From positions 3,430,001 through 3,494,000 of the forward strand of contig NZ_CP087719.1 in the NCBI RefSeq assembly GCF_020991085.1: a stretch of 64,000 nucleotides of DNA, read 5' to 3'. Positions 6,254 through 34,436 of the stretch are shown piece by piece (within the stretch, counting starts at the first letter, position 1; each line of letters begins with the position of its first letter). The position numbers and the translations under genes were made by a program. The notes below the pieces were generated by a model. It did no database searches, was not told the DNA's origin, and was given only the letters and a program-made list of their open reading frames with translations. Source of the DNA: Roseomonas sp. OT10. GTDB lineage: Bacteria; Pseudomonadota; Alphaproteobacteria; Acetobacterales; Acetobacteraceae.

Positions 6254-7114
6254 TCAGCGGCAGCCGGCCTGCTGCCGGGCCCGCGTCGCCCGGTCGTTCA
6301 GCCCGCCGGACAGGCGCGGGAACTGGCTGCGCAGGTCGTCCAGGGTCTGGCAGGCCTCCCGCCGCGCGCCGAAGCCGTTGAAGGCGCTGGCCAGCCCGAC
6401 CAGCGCCTCGGGTGCCCGGCTGGACTGGCGGTTGCGGCGATAGGCGTCGTCGAAGGCCAGCGCCGCGTTCTGGAAGTCGCGCCTGCCCAGCAGCGCCTCG
6501 CCGAGCAGGAGCTGCGCGTCCTGCGTCCGGGGGGAGTTGCGGGTGGCCAGCGCCTCCCGGGCCGCCGCTTCGGCGGCGGGGTAGTCCCGCCGCCCCAGCG
6601 CCGCCTGGCCATCCGACAGGGCCCGCTCGGGCGTGCGGGGGGCAGGGGCCGCTTGAGCCGGGGCCGGGGTGGGGACCGGGCTGGCGGCCGGCGCCGCGGG
6701 GCGGGCGGGGGGCGGCGTGGCGGGCGCCCCGCCGCCGGCGCGCCCGGCCTCCAGTTGCTGCAGCCGGTAGTCCATGTCGCCCTGCAGCTTCTCCACCACC
6801 TGCTGCAGGTTCCGGAGGCGGTAGTCCGCCTGCTCGGCCTGGCCGCGCAGGCGACGGACCTCCTCCTCCAGGGCATTCACGCGGTCGAGCAGCGGGCCGA
6901 TCAGCTCGCTGCCCCCGCCTCCCCCGCCGCGTGCGACGGGCGGGGGGGCGACGGGGGCGGCGACGCCGCCGCGGCGCAGCATCTCCATCTCCTGGCGGAG
7001 CTGCAGGATCTGGTTCTGCAGCATGATCCCCTCCCGGCTTTCCACCTGCGCCTGCGCAGGGGGAATGACGGCCGGGGCGGCCAGCAGGAGGAAGGCGAGC
7101 AGCGCGCCGCGCAT
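6254..7114 (-). CDS. cpoB: Tol-Pal associated periplasmic TPR protein CpoB (YbgF)
   Basis: Periplasmic protein that coordinates Tol-Pal outer-membrane constriction with septal peptidoglycan synthesis. 286 residues: signal peptide at 1-23 (LLAFLLLAAPAVIPPAQAQ), an N-terminal coiled-coil rich in Gln/Glu/Leu (about 28-125) that trimerises in known homologues, an Ala/Pro linker, then C-terminal TPR repeats (RALSDGQAALGRRDYPAAE, and LLLGEALLGRRDFQNAALAF) ending in CR. It follows pal by 16 bases, the standard last gene of the tol operon. Good match in layout and length. Confidence 0.93.
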   Translation of the reverse strand: MRGALLAFLLLAAPAVIPPAQAQVESREGIMLQNQILQLRQEMEMLRRGGVAAPVAPPPVARGGGGGGSELIGPLLDRVNALEEEVRRLRGQAEQADYRLRNLQQVVEKLQGDMDYRLQQLEAGRAGGGAPATPPPARPAAPAASPVPTPAPAQAAPAPRTPERALSDGQAALGRRDYPAAEAAAREALATRNSPRTQDAQLLLGEALLGRRDFQNAALAFDDAYRRNRQSSRAPEALVGLASAFNGFGARREACQTLDDLRSQFPRLSGGLNDRATRARQQAGCR

Positions 7115-7130
7115 CAGGCCGTCCGTCGGA

Positions 7131-7619
7131 TCAGCGGACGACGGTCACGGCGCGGCGGTTCTGCGCCCAGGCCGACTCGTCCGAGCCCAGGGCCGCCGGG
7201 CGGTCCTTGCCGTAGGAGATGGTCTGGATGCGGCTGCCGGCCACGCCGGAGGCCACCAGCACGTCGCGCGCGGAATTGGCGCGGCGCTGGCCCAGGGCGA
7301 GGTTGTACTCGCGGGTGCCGCGCTCGTCGGTATGGCCCTCGAGGGTCACGGCGACCTGCGGGTAGCGGCCCAGCCAGGAGGCCTGGCGCACCAGCACGTC
7401 GCGCTGGTCGGAACGGACGGCGCTGGAGTCGAAGTCGAAGAAGACGCGGTCGCCGACATTGGCCACCAGATCCTCCTGGCTGCCCGGCCGGACGCTGCCC
7501 ATGCCGCCGGCACCGGCGGAGGAGCCCGCGCCGGTCGCGGCGCCGGCCTGGTCGTCGTTGCTGGAGCAGGCGCCCAGCAAGGCAATGGCGGCGAGCGCGC
7601 CCAGAAGCTTGGTCTGCAT
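7131..7619 (-). CDS. pal: Peptidoglycan-associated lipoprotein Pal
   Basis: Outer-membrane lipoprotein that binds peptidoglycan and couples to TolB. 162 residues. The signal peptide ends in a lipobox LLGAC with lipidated Cys18, followed by a Gly/Ala-rich tether and an OmpA-like domain from about residue 55: FDFDSSAVRSD, VTLEGHTDERGTREYNLALGQRRA and SYGKDRPAALGSDESAWAQN. The EGHTDERGTREYN box carries the Asp and Arg used for diaminopimelate binding. A strong ribosome-binding site AAGGAGA precedes the ATG. Sits between tolB and cpoB. Confidence 0.97.
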   Translation of the reverse strand: MQTKLLGALAAIALLGACSSNDDQAGAATGAGSSAGAGGMGSVRPGSQEDLVANVGDRVFFDFDSSAVRSDQRDVLVRQASWLGRYPQVAVTLEGHTDERGTREYNLALGQRRANSARDVLVASGVAGSRIQTISYGKDRPAALGSDESAWAQNRRAVTVVR

Positions 7620-7749
7620 GATGTCCCGATCTCCTTGGTCTTGCGGGGGGTCTTTTCAGGGCCATCCGACGCGGCGTGGCGCCGGCACAAGCACGCTGCG
7701 CCCCTACAGTTGCATCTTGGCCACGGTCAAGCGCACGAGCCGAGCGGAA

Positions 7750-9093
7750 TCAGGAGAGCAGGGGCGACCAGGAAGGATCGGTGGCGTCGGTGGGGGTCAC
7801 GACCTGCCGCTCGTTGAAGCCGGCGATGTCGATCATGGACATCCGCGCGCCATAGCCGTTGCCGCGGGAATCCCGTGCCGGGCTCTCGCGGTAATAGGCG
7901 AGGACCCGGCCGTTGGGGGCGAAGGTCGGGCCCTCCATGCCCCAGCCCTCGGTCAGGATGCGCTCGCCCGTGCCGTCCGGACGCATCACGCCGATGGCGA
8001 ACTGGCCGCCGCCGAAGCGGGTGAAGGCGATCAGGTCGCCGCGCGGCGACCAGACGGGCGTGGCGTAGCGGCCGCGGCCGAAGGAGATGCGCCGGGCCCC
8101 GCCGCCGCCGGCATCCATGACGTAGAGCTGCTGGTCGCCGCCGCGGTCGGAGTTGAAGACGATCTGCGACCCGTCCGGGCTGAAGCAGGGCGAGACGTCG
8201 AGCCCGCCGCCGGAGGTGAGCTGCCGCTCCCGGCGCGAGCCGAGGTCGACCACGAAGATGTTGGCGTCGCCGCCGCGCATCGAGGAAAGCACCACCGAGC
8301 GCCCGTCCGGCGAGAAGCGCGGCGACAGGGTCATGCCCTGGAACTGGCCCAGCACCTCCTGCCGGCCGCTGTCCAGGTTGAACAGGTACACCCGCGGCTG
8401 GTTCTGGTAGTAGGACATGAAGGCGATCTGCCGCGCGTTCGGGTGGAAGCGGGGCGTCAGCGCCTGGAAGCTGCCATCGGTCAGGAAGCGGTTGTTCTCG
8501 CCGTCCTGGTCCATGATGGCGAGCCGCCGGGTGCGGCGGTCGCGCGGCCCGCTCTCGCCGACATAGACGATGCGGGTGTCGAAATAGCCCTTCTCGCCCA
8601 GCAGCCGCTCGTAGATCACGTCCGAGATCAGGTGGGCGATGCGGCGCCACTGCGCGGCCGGCGCGGTGAAGGCGGTGCCCTGGATCTGCTGCTCCGGCAG
8701 CACGTCCCACAGGCGGAACTCGACGCGCAGCTGTCCGCCCTGGTCGGCGACGCGGCCGGTGACCAGCGCCTTGGCGTTGATCACGCGCCAGTCCTGGAAG
8801 CGCGGCGTGGCGGAGGCGGCCTCGGCGCTCTGCACGAAGGCGGCGTTCTGGATCGGGCGGAACAGGCCCGAGTTGCGCAGGTTGTTCTGGATCACCTGGG
8901 CGATCTGCGCGCCCTGCGGGCCGGGCAGGGCCGGCACGGCGATCGGGATCGGATCGGTGCGCGCCCGGGTGACGTCCACCACCGAGGTCTCGCCCGGCGT
9001 GGCCGGCTGGGCGAAGGCGCGCAGCCCCGGCACGCCGGCCGCCACCGTGGCGGCGCCCAGAAGTGCGGCGCGTCGTGTCACGCGGCTGTCCAT
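7750..9093 (-). CDS. tolB: Tol-Pal system protein TolB
   Basis: Periplasmic beta-propeller linking TolA to Pal. Starting at [13 protein letters not shown] gives 447 residues with a signal peptide carrying a twin arginine ([18 protein letters not shown]...AFAQ), which hints at Tat export. Residues 30-170 form the TolB N-terminal alpha/beta domain; the rest holds repeated propeller blades such as [26 protein letters not shown] and [15 protein letters not shown] 26 codons upstream would mask the signal peptide and is rejected. Gene order tolA-tolB-pal confirms it. Confidence 0.97.
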
Positions 9094-13323: not shown

Positions 13324-16300
13324 TCAGGGCGGTGCCTCCCGGCGCGGGGCGTGCGCGTCCAGCAGCGCCGCCGGCAGTTCCATCACCCGCCCCGACCAGG
13401 TCCAGACCAGGGCGCAGCCCACCGTCCGCCCCGGCCAGGCGGCGCGCAGCACGGCGCGGTAGGCGGCCATCTGGCGCAGATAGGCGGGCGAGACGTCCTC
13501 CACCCGGCTCGGCGGCGGGCGGTTCGACTTGTAGTCCACGATCAGCGCCCGGTCGGGGCCGATCCACAGCCGGTCCACCTGCCCCGCGATGGGCATGCCG
13601 TCCACGCGGCCCGCGAGCGGCGCCTCGGCTAGGCTGTCCGGGCCGAAGGCATCGGCCAGCGCCGGGTGGTCCAGCACCCCCATCACCTCGGCCAGCGTCG
13701 CATCCTGCTCCTCCGGGGTCAGCCCATGGCCGGGTCGCGCGAGGTGGCGCCGGGCCAGGGCCGCGCGGGCGGCGGGCGGGTGGTCCGGCAGGTGCTGCAA
13801 CAGGCCATGGATCAGCAGCCCGCGCCGGAAGCGGCGGCCGGAGGGATCGCCCGCCCCGTGCGGCGCGGCCGCCGGCTCCACCTCCTCGCCGGCGAGGCGG
13901 GAGGGGGCGATCGGGTCCTCCGACGCCTCGGGCGGGGCGGGGCGGTGCGCCCAGCCCGGCAGGGCGGCGGGGTCGATGCGGGCGGGGGCGGGCTCGGCAC
14001 GCGGCGGCGCGGTCTGCTCGGAGCGCAGGCGCAGCAGCGGCCCGGCGAAGGCCGCACCGGCCGGGGCGCCGAAGCCGGCGGGGTCGAACGCCTCCTCCTC
14101 CACGCCGGGGCAGCGGGCCATGCCCTGCCGGACGAGGGCGTGCCAGGTGGTCTCGCGCCCCGCGCGCTGCTTGGGCTCCTGGCCGCAGACCAGAAGCCGG
14201 TCCTCGGCGCGGGTGAGCGCGACGTAGAGGAGGCGGTTCTCCTCCTCCGCCTCGGCCTCCTGGCGGCGGCGGTCCGCCTCCTTCCAGGCGGGCGCCTGGA
14301 ACTCCTTACGCGGCGCCCAGAGCGGGAGGTCCGGCCGGTTCGGCGTGCCACCCGGCGTTGCAGCCGTGTCCCACAGCAGCACCGGCCGCATCCCCCCCTT
14401 CCCCACATCCGGCAGGATGACGACCGGCGCCTGGAGGCCCTTCGAGCCGTGCGCGGTCATGATGCGCACGGCATCGCCTGCATTCTCCGCCTCGCGCTTC
14501 ACCTCCGCCCCGCCGCGCCGCAGCCAGTGGACGAAGCCCTGGAGCGAGGGCGGGTGGCGGTTCTCGTGGCGAAGGGCCGCGCTCAGCAGCTCGTCCAGCG
14601 CGTCGATGGCGTCGGAGCCGAGGCGGGCCAACAGCTTCGCGCGGCCGCCATGCTCGCCCAGCACCTCGCTCAGCAGCGCGTGCGGGGTGACGATGTCCGC
14701 CCGGTCGGAGAGGTCCGCGATCCAGCTCGCCGCCCGGCCCAGCGCCGTCTCCTCGCCGCGGTGCTTGACCAGGGCGTGCCACAGCCGCCCCTCGCGCCCA
14801 TGGCAAAGGGCGAAGAGCGCCTCCTCGTCCAGCCCGACCAGCGGCGACTTCAGCAGCGCCGCCAGTTGCAGGTCGTCCTCCGGCAGCAGCAGCACGTCGC
14901 ACAGCGCCAGCAGGTCCTGCACCGCGATCTGCTCGACGAGCGCGATGCGGTCCACGCCCCCCACCGGCACGTTGCGCCGCTTGAGGTGGCGCACCAGCAG
15001 CTCCGTCAGCCGCGTGCGGCGGCGCACCAGCACGAGGATGTCGCCCGGCCGCACCGGGCGGCCGCCGCGCGCCGGCAGGGTCTCGCGGGCGATCATGTGG
15101 GCGATGCGCGCGGCGAGGATCTCCGCCATCTGCGCATCCGGGTCCTGGGCGGGGACGGGTTCCTTCGGCACCACCCAGGGCTCGGGGTCCTCGGTGGCGG
15201 CGCGTTCCAGCAGCGGCCAGACCTCGACCATGCCCGCCTGGCCGACGCGATCGGGGAAGTGCGCGAGGTGGGATTCCGGCCGCACCACGCCCGCGCAGGC
15301 CGGCCCCTCCGCGAAGACGGCGTCCACCAGCGACAGCACGGGCGCGCAGGAGCGGAAGGAGACGTCCAGCGGCACCCGCTCGAAGCGCGAGCCGCCGCGC
15401 TCCACCTGGGCGGCGAAGCGGCGCTCCCACCGCTCGAAGCCGCGCGCGTCGGCGCCCTGGAAGCCGTAGATCGACTGCTTCTCGTCGCCCACGACGAAGA
15501 GCGTGCGCTCGCCCGCCGCGCGCGTGCCGGAGCCGGCGAAGAACTCCTCCGCCAGCGAGGCGGCGATGCCCCATTGCGTCGGGTTGGTGTCCTGCGCCTC
15601 GTCCAGCAGCAGGTGGTCCAGCCCGCCATCGAGCTTGAACAGCACCCAGGCCGAGCCGGGATCGCGCAGCAGCGCCTGGGCGTACTGGATCAGGTCGTCG
15701 AAATCGAGCGCGCCGAGGCGCTTCTTGCGCGCGGCGTAGTCGGCGAGCGTGGGCTTCGTCGCGGTCAGCAGCGCATGGGTGGCGCCGAGCAGGCGGTGCG
15801 CGTTCCAGCGCTCGCGCAGCGCGGCGAGGCGTTCCGATTCCCGCGCGAGGGCGTCGTATTCCGCCAGCGCCTTGCGCAGATCCCCCTTGTCGGTGTGCAG
15901 GCAGGACCACCACTCCTCCGCCTCCAGCGCGCGCGCGGCGGGGTCGAGGGAGAGGAAGTCCAGCATGCGCTGGCCCAGGTCGCGCTGGGTCTTGGTCTTG
16001 TGGCCCAGCAGCGTCTCGCAGACGGCACGGATTCCCTCGGGCGGGCTGGCGAGGAGGCGCGGCATGTCCTCCTCGCGCTCGCCATCGGGCAGGCCGAGCC
16101 CGTCGCGCAGGTGGTCGGCGATGGCGATGCTGCCGCCCGGCGCCTCGATCAGCGGGCGCAGCCGCTCGCGGTGCCGCGCCAGCTCGCGCAGGGCGCCGGC
16201 GATGGAATCCGCCGAGACGAGGCGGGCCAGCGCCGCCAGGCTCTCGGGCGGCACGCGGCCGCCGCCCAGCGCCGCCTCCCGCGCCTCCGCCAGCAGGGTG

Positions 16301-30296: not shown

Positions 30297-31283
30297 TCAG
30301 TCCACCTCGATCCCCGCCTTGCGGATCACCTCCGCCCAGCGGGTCCGCTCCTCCGCCATGAAGCGGCCGAAGGCGGCGGCGTCCATGCGGAAGGGCTCGG
30401 TGCCATCCGCGCGCAGCCGGTCCAGCAGCTCCGGCGCGCCCAGCGCGGTGTCGATCGCCCCGGCGAGGCGGGCGCGCACCGGCTCCGGCGTGCCATGCGG
30501 CACGAGGATGCCGTACCAGGCGGTGACGGCGTAGCCCGGCAGGGTCTCGGCCACGGTGGGCACGTCCGGCAGGGCGGCGACGCGGCTGCGGCCGGTGACG
30601 GCCAGCGCCCGCAGCGTGCCGCCCTGCACCAGCCCCAGCACGGAAGGCAGGGTGGAGATCATCGCCGCCATGTGCCCCGCCGCCACGTCGGTCAGCCCCG
30701 GCGCCGCGCCGCGGAAGGGCAGGTGCGTCGCGGTGACGCCGGCCTGGAGCAGCAGCAGCGCCATGGCCAGGTGTCCCGCCGAGCCGTTGCCCGGCGAGGC
30801 GTAGTTCAGCTCGCCCTTCCTCGCCCGTGCCTCCTCCAGCAGCTCCGCCAGGGTCTTCGCCCGGGTGCCGGGGCCGACCACCAGCACCAGCGGCGTCTCC
30901 GCCACCATCGCCACCGGGTCGAGCGCCGTCGCCGGGTCGGTCTTCAGGGTGCGGCCGAACAGCGTCGGGTTCACCGTCATGGGCCCCTGGTTACCCATCA
31001 GCAGGGTGTAGCCATCGGGCTTCGCCGTCGCGACCAGCTCGGTGGCCAGGTTGCCGCCGGCGCCGGGGCGGTTCTCCACGACGACGGGTTGGCCCAGCTC
31101 CGCCTGGAGGCGCGCCGCGAGGGTGCGGGCCACGCCATCCGTGCCGCCGCCGGGGGTATAGGGCAGGATCAGCCGCAGCGGCCGGTCAGGCCAGCCCGCC
31201 CCCTGCGCGGCCGCCGCACGCGGCAGGACCAGGGGTGCCGACAGGGCCAGCAAGGCCGCGCGCCGCGGCAGCGGAAGGGTCAT
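30297..31283 (-). CDS. Bug-type (TctC) periplasmic solute-binding protein
   Basis: 328 residues. Signal peptide RRAALLALSAPLVLPRAAAAQ, perhaps Tat-like, then the Bug opening DRPLRLILPYTPGGGTDGVAR, ENRPGAGGNLATELVA, and LNYASPGNGSAGHLAMALL. These receptors bind carboxylates or similar small acids for tripartite tricarboxylate transporters, but no TctA or TctB membrane gene is close, so it is an orphan as is common in beta- and alphaproteobacteria. Ligand not predictable. Its start faces the distal end of the CRISPR array 115 bases away. Confidence 0.92.
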   Translation of the reverse strand: MTLPLPRRAALLALSAPLVLPRAAAAQGAGWPDRPLRLILPYTPGGGTDGVARTLAARLQAELGQPVVVENRPGAGGNLATELVATAKPDGYTLLMGNQGPMTVNPTLFGRTLKTDPATALDPVAMVAETPLVLVVGPGTRAKTLAELLEEARARKGELNYASPGNGSAGHLAMALLLLQAGVTATHLPFRGAAPGLTDVAAGHMAAMISTLPSVLGLVQGGTLRALAVTGRSRVAALPDVPTVAETLPGYAVTAWYGILVPHGTPEPVRARLAGAIDTALGAPELLDRLRADGTEPFRMDAAAFGRFMAEERTRWAEVIRKAGIEVD

Positions 31284-31398
31284 GGACGTGTCTCCGGCAT
31301 TCTTTCCTGGCGGGCATGCTAGACGGGGCGAGCCTTTGCCGCGAAGAGCCGGCCGCCGCGCCGCATGGCCGGTCCCGGCCAGGCGGCCGTTGGCTTAT

Positions 31399-32586
31399 CG
31401 GTTCATCCCCGCGAGCGCGGGGAACACCTACGAGACTCGTGTGAGCGGCGGCCAACTCGTGGTTCATCCCCGCGAGCGCGGGGAACACGCCGGCGACACA
31501 GGACATCTTGTCGTCGACCCCAGTTCATCCCCGCGAGCGCGGGGAACACTTGCGCCGTGCGCGCGGAGGGAAGCGTCCAGCCGGTTCATCCCCGCGAGCG
31601 CGGGGAACACGCGTCGCTGCGCTCGCGCAGCCAGTCCTCGTGCGGTTCATCCCCGCGAGCGCGGGGAACACGCGCGCCAGTCCTGCGCGCCCTATCCCCT
31701 CGCCGGTTCATCCCCGCGAGCGCGGGGAACACGCTGTCCGCCTGATGCCGCCTGGATTCTTCCACGGTTCATCCCCGCGAGCGCGGGGAACACATCAGCA
31801 CTGGCGGCGCGACAGGCGGCCAGGTCGGTTCATCCCCGCGAGCGCGGGGAACACCCGGCGGGAGCCCGCCTGATGCCCCGCGTCGCCGGTTCATCCCCGC
31901 GAGCGCGGGGAACACCAGTCGGCGGGCACCTGCACGATGCGCATCGACGGTTCATCCCCGCGAGCGCGGGGAACACTCGATGTAGGCAGGGCCGTCCTCG
32001 CGATGCAGCGGTTCATCCCCGCGAGCGCGGGGAACACCATGCGGAATGGGATGACGACATCCGGGCGCACGGTTCATCCCCGCGAGCGCGGGGAACACGT
32101 CTCCGCCTGCCGCCCGGAGACAATCGCCGGCGGTTCATCCCCGCGAGCGCGGGGAACACCCGACCAGCATGCCGATCAGCGGCCCGCCGACCGGTTCATC
32201 CCCGCGAGCGCGGGGAACACTCGCGCCACATTCGCGCGATGGATGAGCGACGCGGTTCATCCCCGCGAGCGCGGGGAACACGTGCTCGCGACGGACAGCG
32301 GCAGCGCCTATCGCGGTTCATCCCCGCGAGCGCGGGGAACACACGGAACCGCGACCGACCTGGTGGAAGAGGCGCGGTTCATCCCCGCGAGCGCGGGGAA
32401 CACATGATGGGCCGGCCATCCTCGCGCAGCGCCGCCGGTTCATCCCCGCGAGCGCGGGGAACACGACAACGCCTTGAGGTAGTCCCAGGCGACACGCGGT
32501 TCATCCCCGCGAGCGCGGGGAACACACGGCCAGGGACAGGTCAGTCACGAAGAAGGTCGGTTCATCCCCGCGAGCGCGGGGAACAC
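31399..32586 (-). CRISPR. CRISPR array, type I-E-like repeat, 20 repeats and 19 spacers
   Basis: Repeats begin every 61 bases exactly, at 31400, 31461, 31522 and so on to 32559. On the plus strand each 28-base core starts GGTTCATCCCC and ends GCGGGGAACAC, with a CCCCGC/GCGGGG stem around GAGC and, in all but the second copy, a preceding C that makes it 29 bases. All 19 spacers are 32 bases and all differ. The reverse complement (GTGTTCCCC...GATGAACCG) is the usual transcribed form of type I-E repeats. The only deviations are at the left end (T for C before copy 2, A for G at 31522), so the left is the old, leader-distal end and transcription is on the minus strand. No cas genes occur in the window. 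Confidence 0.98.
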
Positions 32587-32771
32587 CTTTCCTGTAAGCG
32601 ACTGTTCTGCCATCGCTATTCGGTTGCCGAAAGAACCACCGATCGGAATGCCCGTTCCGAGCCGGACCGGGGACCGGGCCGAGCATACCGCCCCGGGCGC
32701 GACGGGGCCCAGACCAAAGCCGTGGCGCCCCGCCCGCACCGCATGGCCGGGCCCGGAGCCCGCCCCGGGGA
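32587..32771 (-). promoter_or_regulatory. Probable CRISPR leader and spacer-acquisition end
   Basis: 185 bases between the last perfect repeat and the fhs stop. Because repeats decay at the opposite end, this is the expected leader. The 60 bases next to the array are lower in GC than the surroundings and contain stretches such as CTGTAAGCGACTG and TATTCGGTTGCCGAAAGAA, with an inverted CGGTTG/CCGAAA-like element; the rest returns to high GC. No clear promoter or IHF site could be defined. Confidence 0.55.
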
Positions 32772-34436
32772 TCAGAACAACCCTTCGATGTTGCCCTCCG
32801 CATCCAGGCCGATGCGCTCGGCGGCCGGGCTGCGCGGCAGGCCGGGCATGGTCATCACGTCGCCGCAGATCGCCACCACGAAGCCGGCGCCGGCCGCGAG
32901 GCGCACCTCGCGCACCGGCAGGACATGGCCGGTGGGGGCGCCGAGGGCGGCGGGATCGGCGCTGAAGGAGTACTGCGTCTTGGCGATGCAGACGGGGACC
33001 TGGCCGAACCCCGCCTCCTCGAACCGCTTCAGCCGGGAATGCACGGAGGGCGGCACGGCGATGTCGGCGGCGCGGTAGATCCGCCGCGCGATGGTGCGGA
33101 TCTTCTCCTCCAGCGGCAGCGAGTCCTCGTAGATCGGGGCGAAGCGCGCGGTGCCGTCCTCGATCAGCCGTCGCACGGCGCGGCCCAGCTCCATCGCCCC
33201 CGCCGCGCCGTCGGCCCAGTGGGTGCAGAGCACGACCTCCGCGCCCAGCGGCGCCAGCGCCTCGCGCACCACGGCGATCTCCGCCTCCGTGTCGGAGGTG
33301 AAGCGGTTCAGCGCCACCACCACCGGCAGGCCGAAGAGGCGCATGTTCTCGACGTGCCGCACGACGTTGACCACGCCACGCTTCACGGCGGCCACGTCCT
33401 CGCGGTCCAGCTCGCCGCGCGCCACGCCGCCGTTCAGCTTCAGCGCGCGCACGGTCGCGACGACGACGCAGGCCTCGGGCGAGAGGCCGGCGAGGCGGCA
33501 CTTGATGTCGCAGAACTTCTCGCCGCCCAGGTCGGCGCCGAAGCCCGCCTCCGTCACCACCACGTCGGCCAGCCGCAGCCCGAGCCGGGTGGCGGCGACG
33601 GAGTTGCAGCCATGCGCGATGTTGGCGAAGGGGCCGCCATGGACGAGCGCCGGGCTGCCTTCCAGCGTCTGCACCAGGTTGGGGAACATCGCTTCGCGCA
33701 GCAGCGCCGCCATGGCGCCGTGCGCCTTCAGCTCGGCCGCCGTCACGCTGGTGCCGTCGCGCCTCTGGCCGACGATGATGCGGCCCAGCCGGGCCTGGAG
33801 GTCGGCGAGGTCGTTCGACAGGCACAGGATCGCCATCACCTCGCTCGCCACGGTGATGTCGAACCCGTCCTCGCGCGGCAGGCCGTTGGGCATGCCGCCG
33901 AGGCCCACCAGCACGTCGCGCAGCGCGCGGTCGTTCATGTCGATGGCGCGGCGCCAGGTGATCCGCCGCTGGTCGAGCCCGAGCGCGTTGCCCCAGTGGA
34001 GGTGGTTGTCCACCATGGCCGAGAGCAGGTTGTTGGCGCTGGTGATGGCGTGGAAGTCGCCGGTGAAGTGGAGGTTGATGTCCTCCATCGGCGCCACCTG
34101 CGCCCGCCCGCCGCCCGTGGCGCCCCCCTTCACCCCGAAGCAGGGGCCGAGGCTGGGCTCGCGCAGGCAGATCATGGTCCGCGTGCCCAGCGCGTTCAGC
34201 GCGTCGCCCAGCCCGATGGTGGTGGTCGTCTTGCCCTCGCCGGCCGCGGTCGGGTTGATGCCCGTCACCAGGACCAGCGCGCCCGTCCTGCCGGAATCCG
34301 GGATGCGGCCGGGGTCCAGCTTGGCCTTGAAGCGCCCGTGCGGCTCCACCGCCGCCTCCGGGATGCCCGCCCGCTCGGCGATGCGGAGGATCGGCTGCAG
34401 GGTGGCGGCCCGGGCGATCTCGAGGTCGGTGGCCAT
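32772..34436 (-). CDS. fhs: Formate--tetrahydrofolate ligase
   Basis: ATP-dependent synthesis of 10-formyl-THF from formate and THF in one-carbon metabolism. 554 residues, usual length. P-loop region [19 protein letters not shown] near residue 66, [38 protein letters not shown] and FGGLDGAKFCDIK-like segment [15 protein letters not shown], all strongly conserved. Start ATG ([16 protein letters not shown]) is standard. Lies between the CRISPR leader and the ABC permease operon, 43 bases after the latter, so could be read from it. Confidence 0.97.

Follow-up and report, generated by a model that had tools for sequence, protein, structure and literature searches.

The window, by which we mean the whole 64,000-nucleotide stretch of Roseomonas DNA analysed here, carries a type I-E CRISPR array and its leader between a formate-tetrahydrofolate ligase gene (fhs) and a gene for a TctC/Bug-type receptor, with leader and array together bracketed by a pair of 23-bp direct repeats:

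30297..31283, minus strand: TctC/Bug-type receptor gene (PF03401)
31356..31378, no strand assigned: left copy of the 23-bp direct repeat, CCGCGCCGCATGGCCGGTCCCGG
31399..32586, minus strand: type I-E CRISPR array, 20 repeats of 29 nt and 19 spacers of 32 nt
31399..31549, minus strand: leader-distal end of the array, with its oldest end at 31399
32558..32586, minus strand: leader-proximal (first) repeat, with the newest end at 32586
32589..32721, minus strand: leader, given as the best local alignment to the leader of a second, main array
32734..32756, no strand assigned: right copy of the direct repeat, identical at 21 of 23 bases
32772..34436, minus strand: fhs (PF01268)

In the crRNA sense the 29-nt repeat unit reads GTGTTCCCCGCGCTCGCGGGGATGAACCG and folds as a 7-bp hairpin. 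The start-to-start spacing is 61 nt in 19 of 19 intervals and a 27-nt core is identical in all 20 copies, confirming the 20 nearly perfect repeats described by the first-pass annotation. Repeats of 29 nt with a type I-E stem, 32-nt spacers, and a 61-nt period are those of a type I-E array and agree with the multi-array type I-E systems in the accessible part of a published survey (PMC12814883). The repeats at 31460 and 31521, near the leader-distal end, have the final two bases of the unit altered; since these variants lie towards 31399 and the leader lies at the opposite end, the array grew from its 32586 end, with the crRNA sense on the minus strand. The earlier calls of a type I-E-like array with minus-strand sense hold on the combined evidence of the repeat, the side of the leader, and the subtype of the cas genes described below. 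No Rfam family reached its gathering score in window positions 31000-33000, and a consensus scan of 31280-32900 returned no promoter-like or terminator-like site.

A tblastn search with the eight Cas proteins of the same genome against the window plus 10 kb on each side found nothing below E 0.07, the lowest value (0.073) belonging to a 37-residue match of cas6e. Weak matches of cas3 mostly paired its C-terminal residues with the array repeats, because the cas3 frame reads through repeat-like DNA. No cas gene was thus found in the window or within 10 kb of it, in line with what had been stated from the open reading frames of the window, and the nearest genes had been correctly named as the Bug receptor and fhs, both on the minus strand.

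A search of the whole genome for type I-E cas genes found the full set on the same chromosome (C1), within a stretch (L002, C1:66000-85500) that also holds the only other array with this repeat:

C1 about 70.5-79.6 kb: complete type I-E operon, cas3-cas8e-cse2-cas7-cas5-cas6e-cas1-cas2
C1:78392-79216: single genome-wide match of the Cas1e model
C1:79296-79553: single genome-wide match of the Cas2e model
C1:79678-82756 (L002:13679-16757): main array, 51 repeats and 50 spacers, adjoining the operon via its leader

The eight translated cas frames run in one direction and have no inner stops. In L002, cas3, cas8e, cas5e, cas6e, cas1e, and cas2e were called by NCBIfam and PADLOC, and cse2 and cas7 by Pfam; cas3 scored 443.7 bits against the NCBIfam full-length Cas3 model, below its cut-off of 569, and exceeded the cut-offs of the NCBIfam helicase and HD domain models. 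The main array lies directly after cas2, its first repeat beginning 49 bp past the cas2 stop, and is itself followed immediately by an 80-residue frame (L002:16799-17041), which we take to resemble a Phd/VapB-type antitoxin. If the 5.33-Mb contig is assumed to be circular, the window array stands about 3.38 Mb from the operon and main array in one direction and about 1.94 Mb in the opposite one. Across the 5.69-Mb genome, the repeat core with at most three mismatches occurred in the window array, in the main array, in a single degenerate copy next to cas3, and at a lone site with three mismatches, compared with 0 matches for the reversed pattern used as a control. We took that last, solitary site (C1:2458005) as chance, the second arm of its palindrome being broken; it adjoins a frame that we read as rarA-like.

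The first-pass annotation had left two readings side by side, in which cas genes act in trans from elsewhere or the array is an orphan remaining after their loss. The former is supported by the complete type I-E operon and same-repeat array on the same chromosome, and the latter is refuted by that other array standing directly beside cas genes. Nothing beyond the absence of cas genes from the window speaks for an orphan relic, and although the window array resembles orphan arrays in having no cas genes nearby, the whole-genome search places a cognate operon with a full gene set, able to serve the array, on its own chromosome; we regard loss of the cas genes as a practically negligible explanation. 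A cas-less stretch does not, then, imply a dead array.

The two arrays record their kinship in their repeats. Over 27 nt, the 11 leader-distal repeats of the main array are identical to all 20 window repeats, whereas of the 40 newer main-array repeats 39 differ by C6T only and one by C6T plus a further change; the T6 form folds to the same hairpin as the C6 form via a G-U pair. One leader-proximal mutation, recopied at every later insertion, accounts for all 40 C6T repeats, and because the window array never shows C6T, new repeats in each array are copies of that array's own first repeat. The pair is thus a clean natural record of array growth, in which C6T was passed on 39 times in the main array while the window array kept the old form.

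The leaders are likewise related, and it is by homology to the main leader that a leader is recognized next to the first repeat of the window array. The best local alignment covers 134 columns with 96 identities and 1 gap (72%). We relied on local scores against shuffles and dropped percent identities from global alignment, as unrelated stretches at -300..-171 also gave 66-76%. Against 500 base shuffles, positions -85..-1 scored z 19.9 and positions -170..-86 scored z 6.2, with 0/500 shuffles as good in either case, and upstream of -170 no signal of homology between the two leaders was found. Since 49 bp separate the cas2 stop from the first repeat of the main array, the homology takes in the 3' end of cas2; the window leader includes DNA corresponding to it, in which the reading frame is not kept. 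Over -85..-1, the window leader scored z 7.4, 9.4, and 6.4 against the cas2-adjacent leaders of three other genomes of the genus (G003, G006, and G014, respectively).

These leader data bear on a rival explanation in which the window array is transcribed and usable by Cascade, and its gain of spacers ended through decay of the leader. The limited identity between the leaders (96/134 columns), the weaker match of the upstream, cas2-derived part, the lack of a promoter-like site in the consensus scan, and the fewer spacers than in the main array are all consistent with such freezing. Against it, the array is normally polarised, with all 20 cores identical and variants near the leader-distal end only, and the main leader over -85..-1 gives a local score of 54 with the window leader, compared with 26-37 for leaders next to the cas genes of sister species. 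As the main leader is closer to the window leader than to its counterparts in sister species, such divergence is normal for leaders here, and we consider a frozen array possible but doubtful.

How the array came to its present site is suggested by its edges. With up to two mismatches, the 23-bp direct repeat occurs at its two bracketing sites only in the genome; at three mismatches 6 further sites appear, against 8 in a reversed-pattern control. No shuffled pair of flanks among 3,000 aligned as well as the real flanks, which had been picked after the repeat was seen. Leader and array thus look as if they had been inserted together, and we infer that the cas2 end, the leader, and the repeat were copied to the window site as one segment within this lineage. 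A bracketing repeat would equally fit insertion from any source, including horizontal transfer from another type I-E strain. An exact copy of the repeat is found in no other of the 15 genus genomes surveyed, our own being counted among them, so that a donor could be unsampled. Likewise in favour of capture, fhs and the best match of the Bug gene are widely separated in G003, G011, and G013, the three relatives that have the two on a single contig; in the remaining genus genomes they are on different contigs. Such capture is opposed by the repeat, which is that of the old end of the main array, and by leader positions -170..-86, which match the genome's own cas2 end (z 6.2), whereas the same stretch gave no signal against G003 and G014 and a weak one against G006 (11/500 shuffles as good). 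We hold transfer from outside to be rather improbable. An empty site could not be read in nine compared loci, where homology in pieces of >200 bp extends no further than fhs or the Bug gene itself. Judged by its fhs, the genome falls within Roseomonas, with R. mucosa as the closest named species. Among the 15 genus genomes, own included, cas1e is present in 4 and the repeat with at most two mismatches in 3; G014 carries a more different type I-E repeat.

Taken together, we propose, with a probability of about 0.87, that the window array is a satellite of a complete type I-E CRISPR-Cas system and is most likely served in trans. The insertion between fhs and the Bug-receptor gene would have brought in the cas2 3' end, the leader, and one repeat or more as a single segment, after which Cas1-Cas2 would have added spacers at the satellite site independently. 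The minus-strand transcript of the satellite would be cut by Cas6e in trans, and its crRNAs would load into the same Cascade as those of the main array. Transcription of the satellite, cutting in trans, loading into a shared Cascade, and past acquisition by a shared Cas1-Cas2 are all inferred here. Points that we counted against the satellite explanation are the diverged leader, the shorter array (19 versus 50 spacers), the lack of a promoter-like site in the scanned region, and the lack of a PAM-flanked protospacer in the DNA searched. In the accessible part of the survey, type I-E systems typically have two or more arrays, and arrays with the same repeat gain spacers at comparable rates whatever their distance (PMC12814883), which makes a satellite an ordinary case. 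The present pair resembles the systems described there in that one operon serves more than one array, and differs in that its arrays stand megabases apart and in different repeat states (C6 versus T6 in the newer main part).

No spacer is common to the window array (19) and the main array (50), in which spacers P33 and P34 are identical. Two window spacers showed partial matches:

32038..32069, minus strand: spacer R09, overlapping main-array spacer P39 by 26 nt at an offset of 6, with 23 bases identical
31977..32008, minus strand: spacer R10, 26 of whose 32 bases match a repeat-protein frame on a viral contig

The R09/P39 pair scored 17, the next cross-array pair 6. Both spacers read WDDDIRA in one reverse frame, where two of their three differences are silent, suggesting that the two arrays sampled one gene of related elements. 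A pattern of their shared region, also in back-translated form, matched no viral contig, and in 397 family genomes it occurred in the two arrays themselves only. The viral frame matching R10 adjoins a Sak4-like gene; the match has AGG as its flank, belongs to a set of several imperfect repeats, and is no exact protospacer, so that we do not take AGG for a PAM. When the window array was compared with 50,697 phage records, 111 matched, and the 30 of these that were listed are repeat-driven or weak, with a best E of 0.1 or higher among those 30 outside array-like records. Comparison of all 69 spacers with 1.67 Mb of non-array DNA, including the genome's two smaller contigs, gave at most 25/29 identities (R10, on the viral contig). 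The strongest match in the two smaller contigs was that of main-array spacer P45, 19 exact bases on the genome's third contig, which we took as chance in GC-rich DNA. None of the window-array spacers had a protospacer with a convincing PAM in the phage, viral-contig, and family-genome DNA searched.

The distant operon holds what we regard, as a prediction only, as the more interesting part of this system, a candidate toxin-antitoxin module of the CreTA kind between cas3 and cas8e:

L002:7187-7600 (C1:73186-73599), outside the window: predicted CreTA or CreR module
L002:7187-7215 and L002:7254-7282, cas strand: two degenerate repeats, with 5/29 mismatches each and a 38-nt spacer between them
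L002:7350-7366: partial match to the first 17 bases of the guide spacer
From L002:7504: tandem AGA-AGA, codons 7 and 8 of a mini-ORF

The degenerate repeats stand downstream of the conserved part of cas3 and before cas8e, and the cas3 frame ends in repeat-like DNA. The first 138 bp of the cas3-cas8e gap have 41% GC, compared with 75% in cas3. Three features expected of CreTA are seen. The first is a guide that contains two degenerate copies of the co-occurring CRISPR repeat. The second is a spacer that partly matches a PAM-flanked site upstream of the putative toxin: of the first 17 bases of the guide spacer 13 match, directly after AAG, with mismatches at positions 6, 10, 11, and 12. In type I-E systems every sixth guide base does not pair. 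With all 17 positions counted, 17/2000 dinucleotide shuffles of the 319-bp gap were as good; without positions 6 and 12, a scoring chosen post hoc, 1/2000 was as good and 0/2000 with AAG. A narrower seed test, likewise post hoc, gave 4/20,000 base shuffles with the PAM and 192 without it. The third is a strong Shine-Dalgarno (SD) sequence, start codon, tandem rare codons, and stem-loop, as in toxins of the tRNA-sequestering kind, here a mini-ORF that follows AGGAGG and reads ATG TGG CAA ACA CGC CCC AGA AGA GTC GTT TCG GGC TAA, with an RNA fold at z -5.9 against shuffles. In 33 window ORFs picked mechanically, AGA makes up 12 of 13,423 codons, which is the lowest use of any Arg codon but leaves it just outside the ten rarest codons overall. 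One tRNA-Arg(UCU) gene and no CCU anticodon were found among 45 tRNA genes, in a list that may be incomplete, as the expected Ile-GAU and Ala-UGC are missing from it. No sigma-70 promoter match was found at the candidate.

CreTA modules have been published in several forms, the accessible parts of which offer both likenesses and differences. For Citrobacter rodentium, a CreTA has been described in a type I-E locus, where it sits between cas3 and casA (PMC12055562); it shares with the present candidate the place in the type I-E locus, a repeat-like and spacer-like guide, a partial target adjoining a PAM, and a small ORF. In the portion of that report available, however, rare codons are absent from the C. 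rodentium CreT, and its CreA is found on the opposite strand (PMC12055562); the present guide, by contrast, lies on the cas strand, and AGA-AGA occurs in the mini-ORF. The two degenerate flanking repeats are like those of Haloarcula hubeiense CreTA, and the strong SD, start codon, tandem AGA codons, and stem-loop are like those that the CreT of H. hispanica needs, according to the accessible text of PMC8501985. The Haloarcula modules described there are archaeal, and the AGA codons come directly after the start in H. hispanica and at codons 7 and 8 here (PMC8501985). We found no tRNA-sequestering CreT in a bacterial type I-E locus in the accessible parts of the CreTA literature, and no report of CreTA in alphaproteobacteria or of CRISPR and cas genes in Roseomonas in the open-licence literature.

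On these sequence features, we predict that the module is likely a CreTA whose toxin RNA is silenced by Cascade. The main alternative is CreR, a guide that would autorepress the cas genes. In the accessible part of its description, a CreR guide represses the cas promoter from a target at that promoter, generally without a toxin gene (PMC12737573). Here the target and cas8e, which is downstream of it, are separated by about 250 bp that include the mini-ORF, and both roles could combine. With somewhat better than even odds, we suggest that a CreTA maintains the satellite-serving type I-E system, in that the guide at the end of cas3 and Cascade would silence a mini-ORF RNA trapping the single tRNA-Arg(UCU). 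If this is true, loss of Cascade would be poisonous, which would explain why an array so far from the operon stays provided for. A working candidate would also extend CRISPR addiction by tandem rare codons to a bacterial type I-E locus.

Matches to the 431-bp module at E 0.001 or better occurred in 23 of the 397 family genomes, our own among them. The matches listed for 19 of the others, which leave aside those of G131, G283, and G285 (E 7e-4 to 9e-4), are confined to the first 111 bases of the module, the repeat-like part, and no relative of the toxin part was seen among the listed matches in these family genomes. The cas3-cas8e gap is short in G003 and G006 and contains no repeat-like pair. 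In G003 (L143 about 6379-7973) and G014 (L145 168-1113), cas8e matches in two separate pieces; those of G003 are in different frames and may reflect a frameshift or an assembly error. In G003, a stretch of about 1.35 kb (L143 about 13700-15050) divides the cas-adjacent array into blocks of 22 and 43 repeats; the end of this stretch looks to us like an insertion-sequence transposase. In the repeat of the sister species (L143 and L144 arrays) the central CT is read as AG, and best tblastn identities between the Cas proteins of the sister species and our own are about 81-97%.
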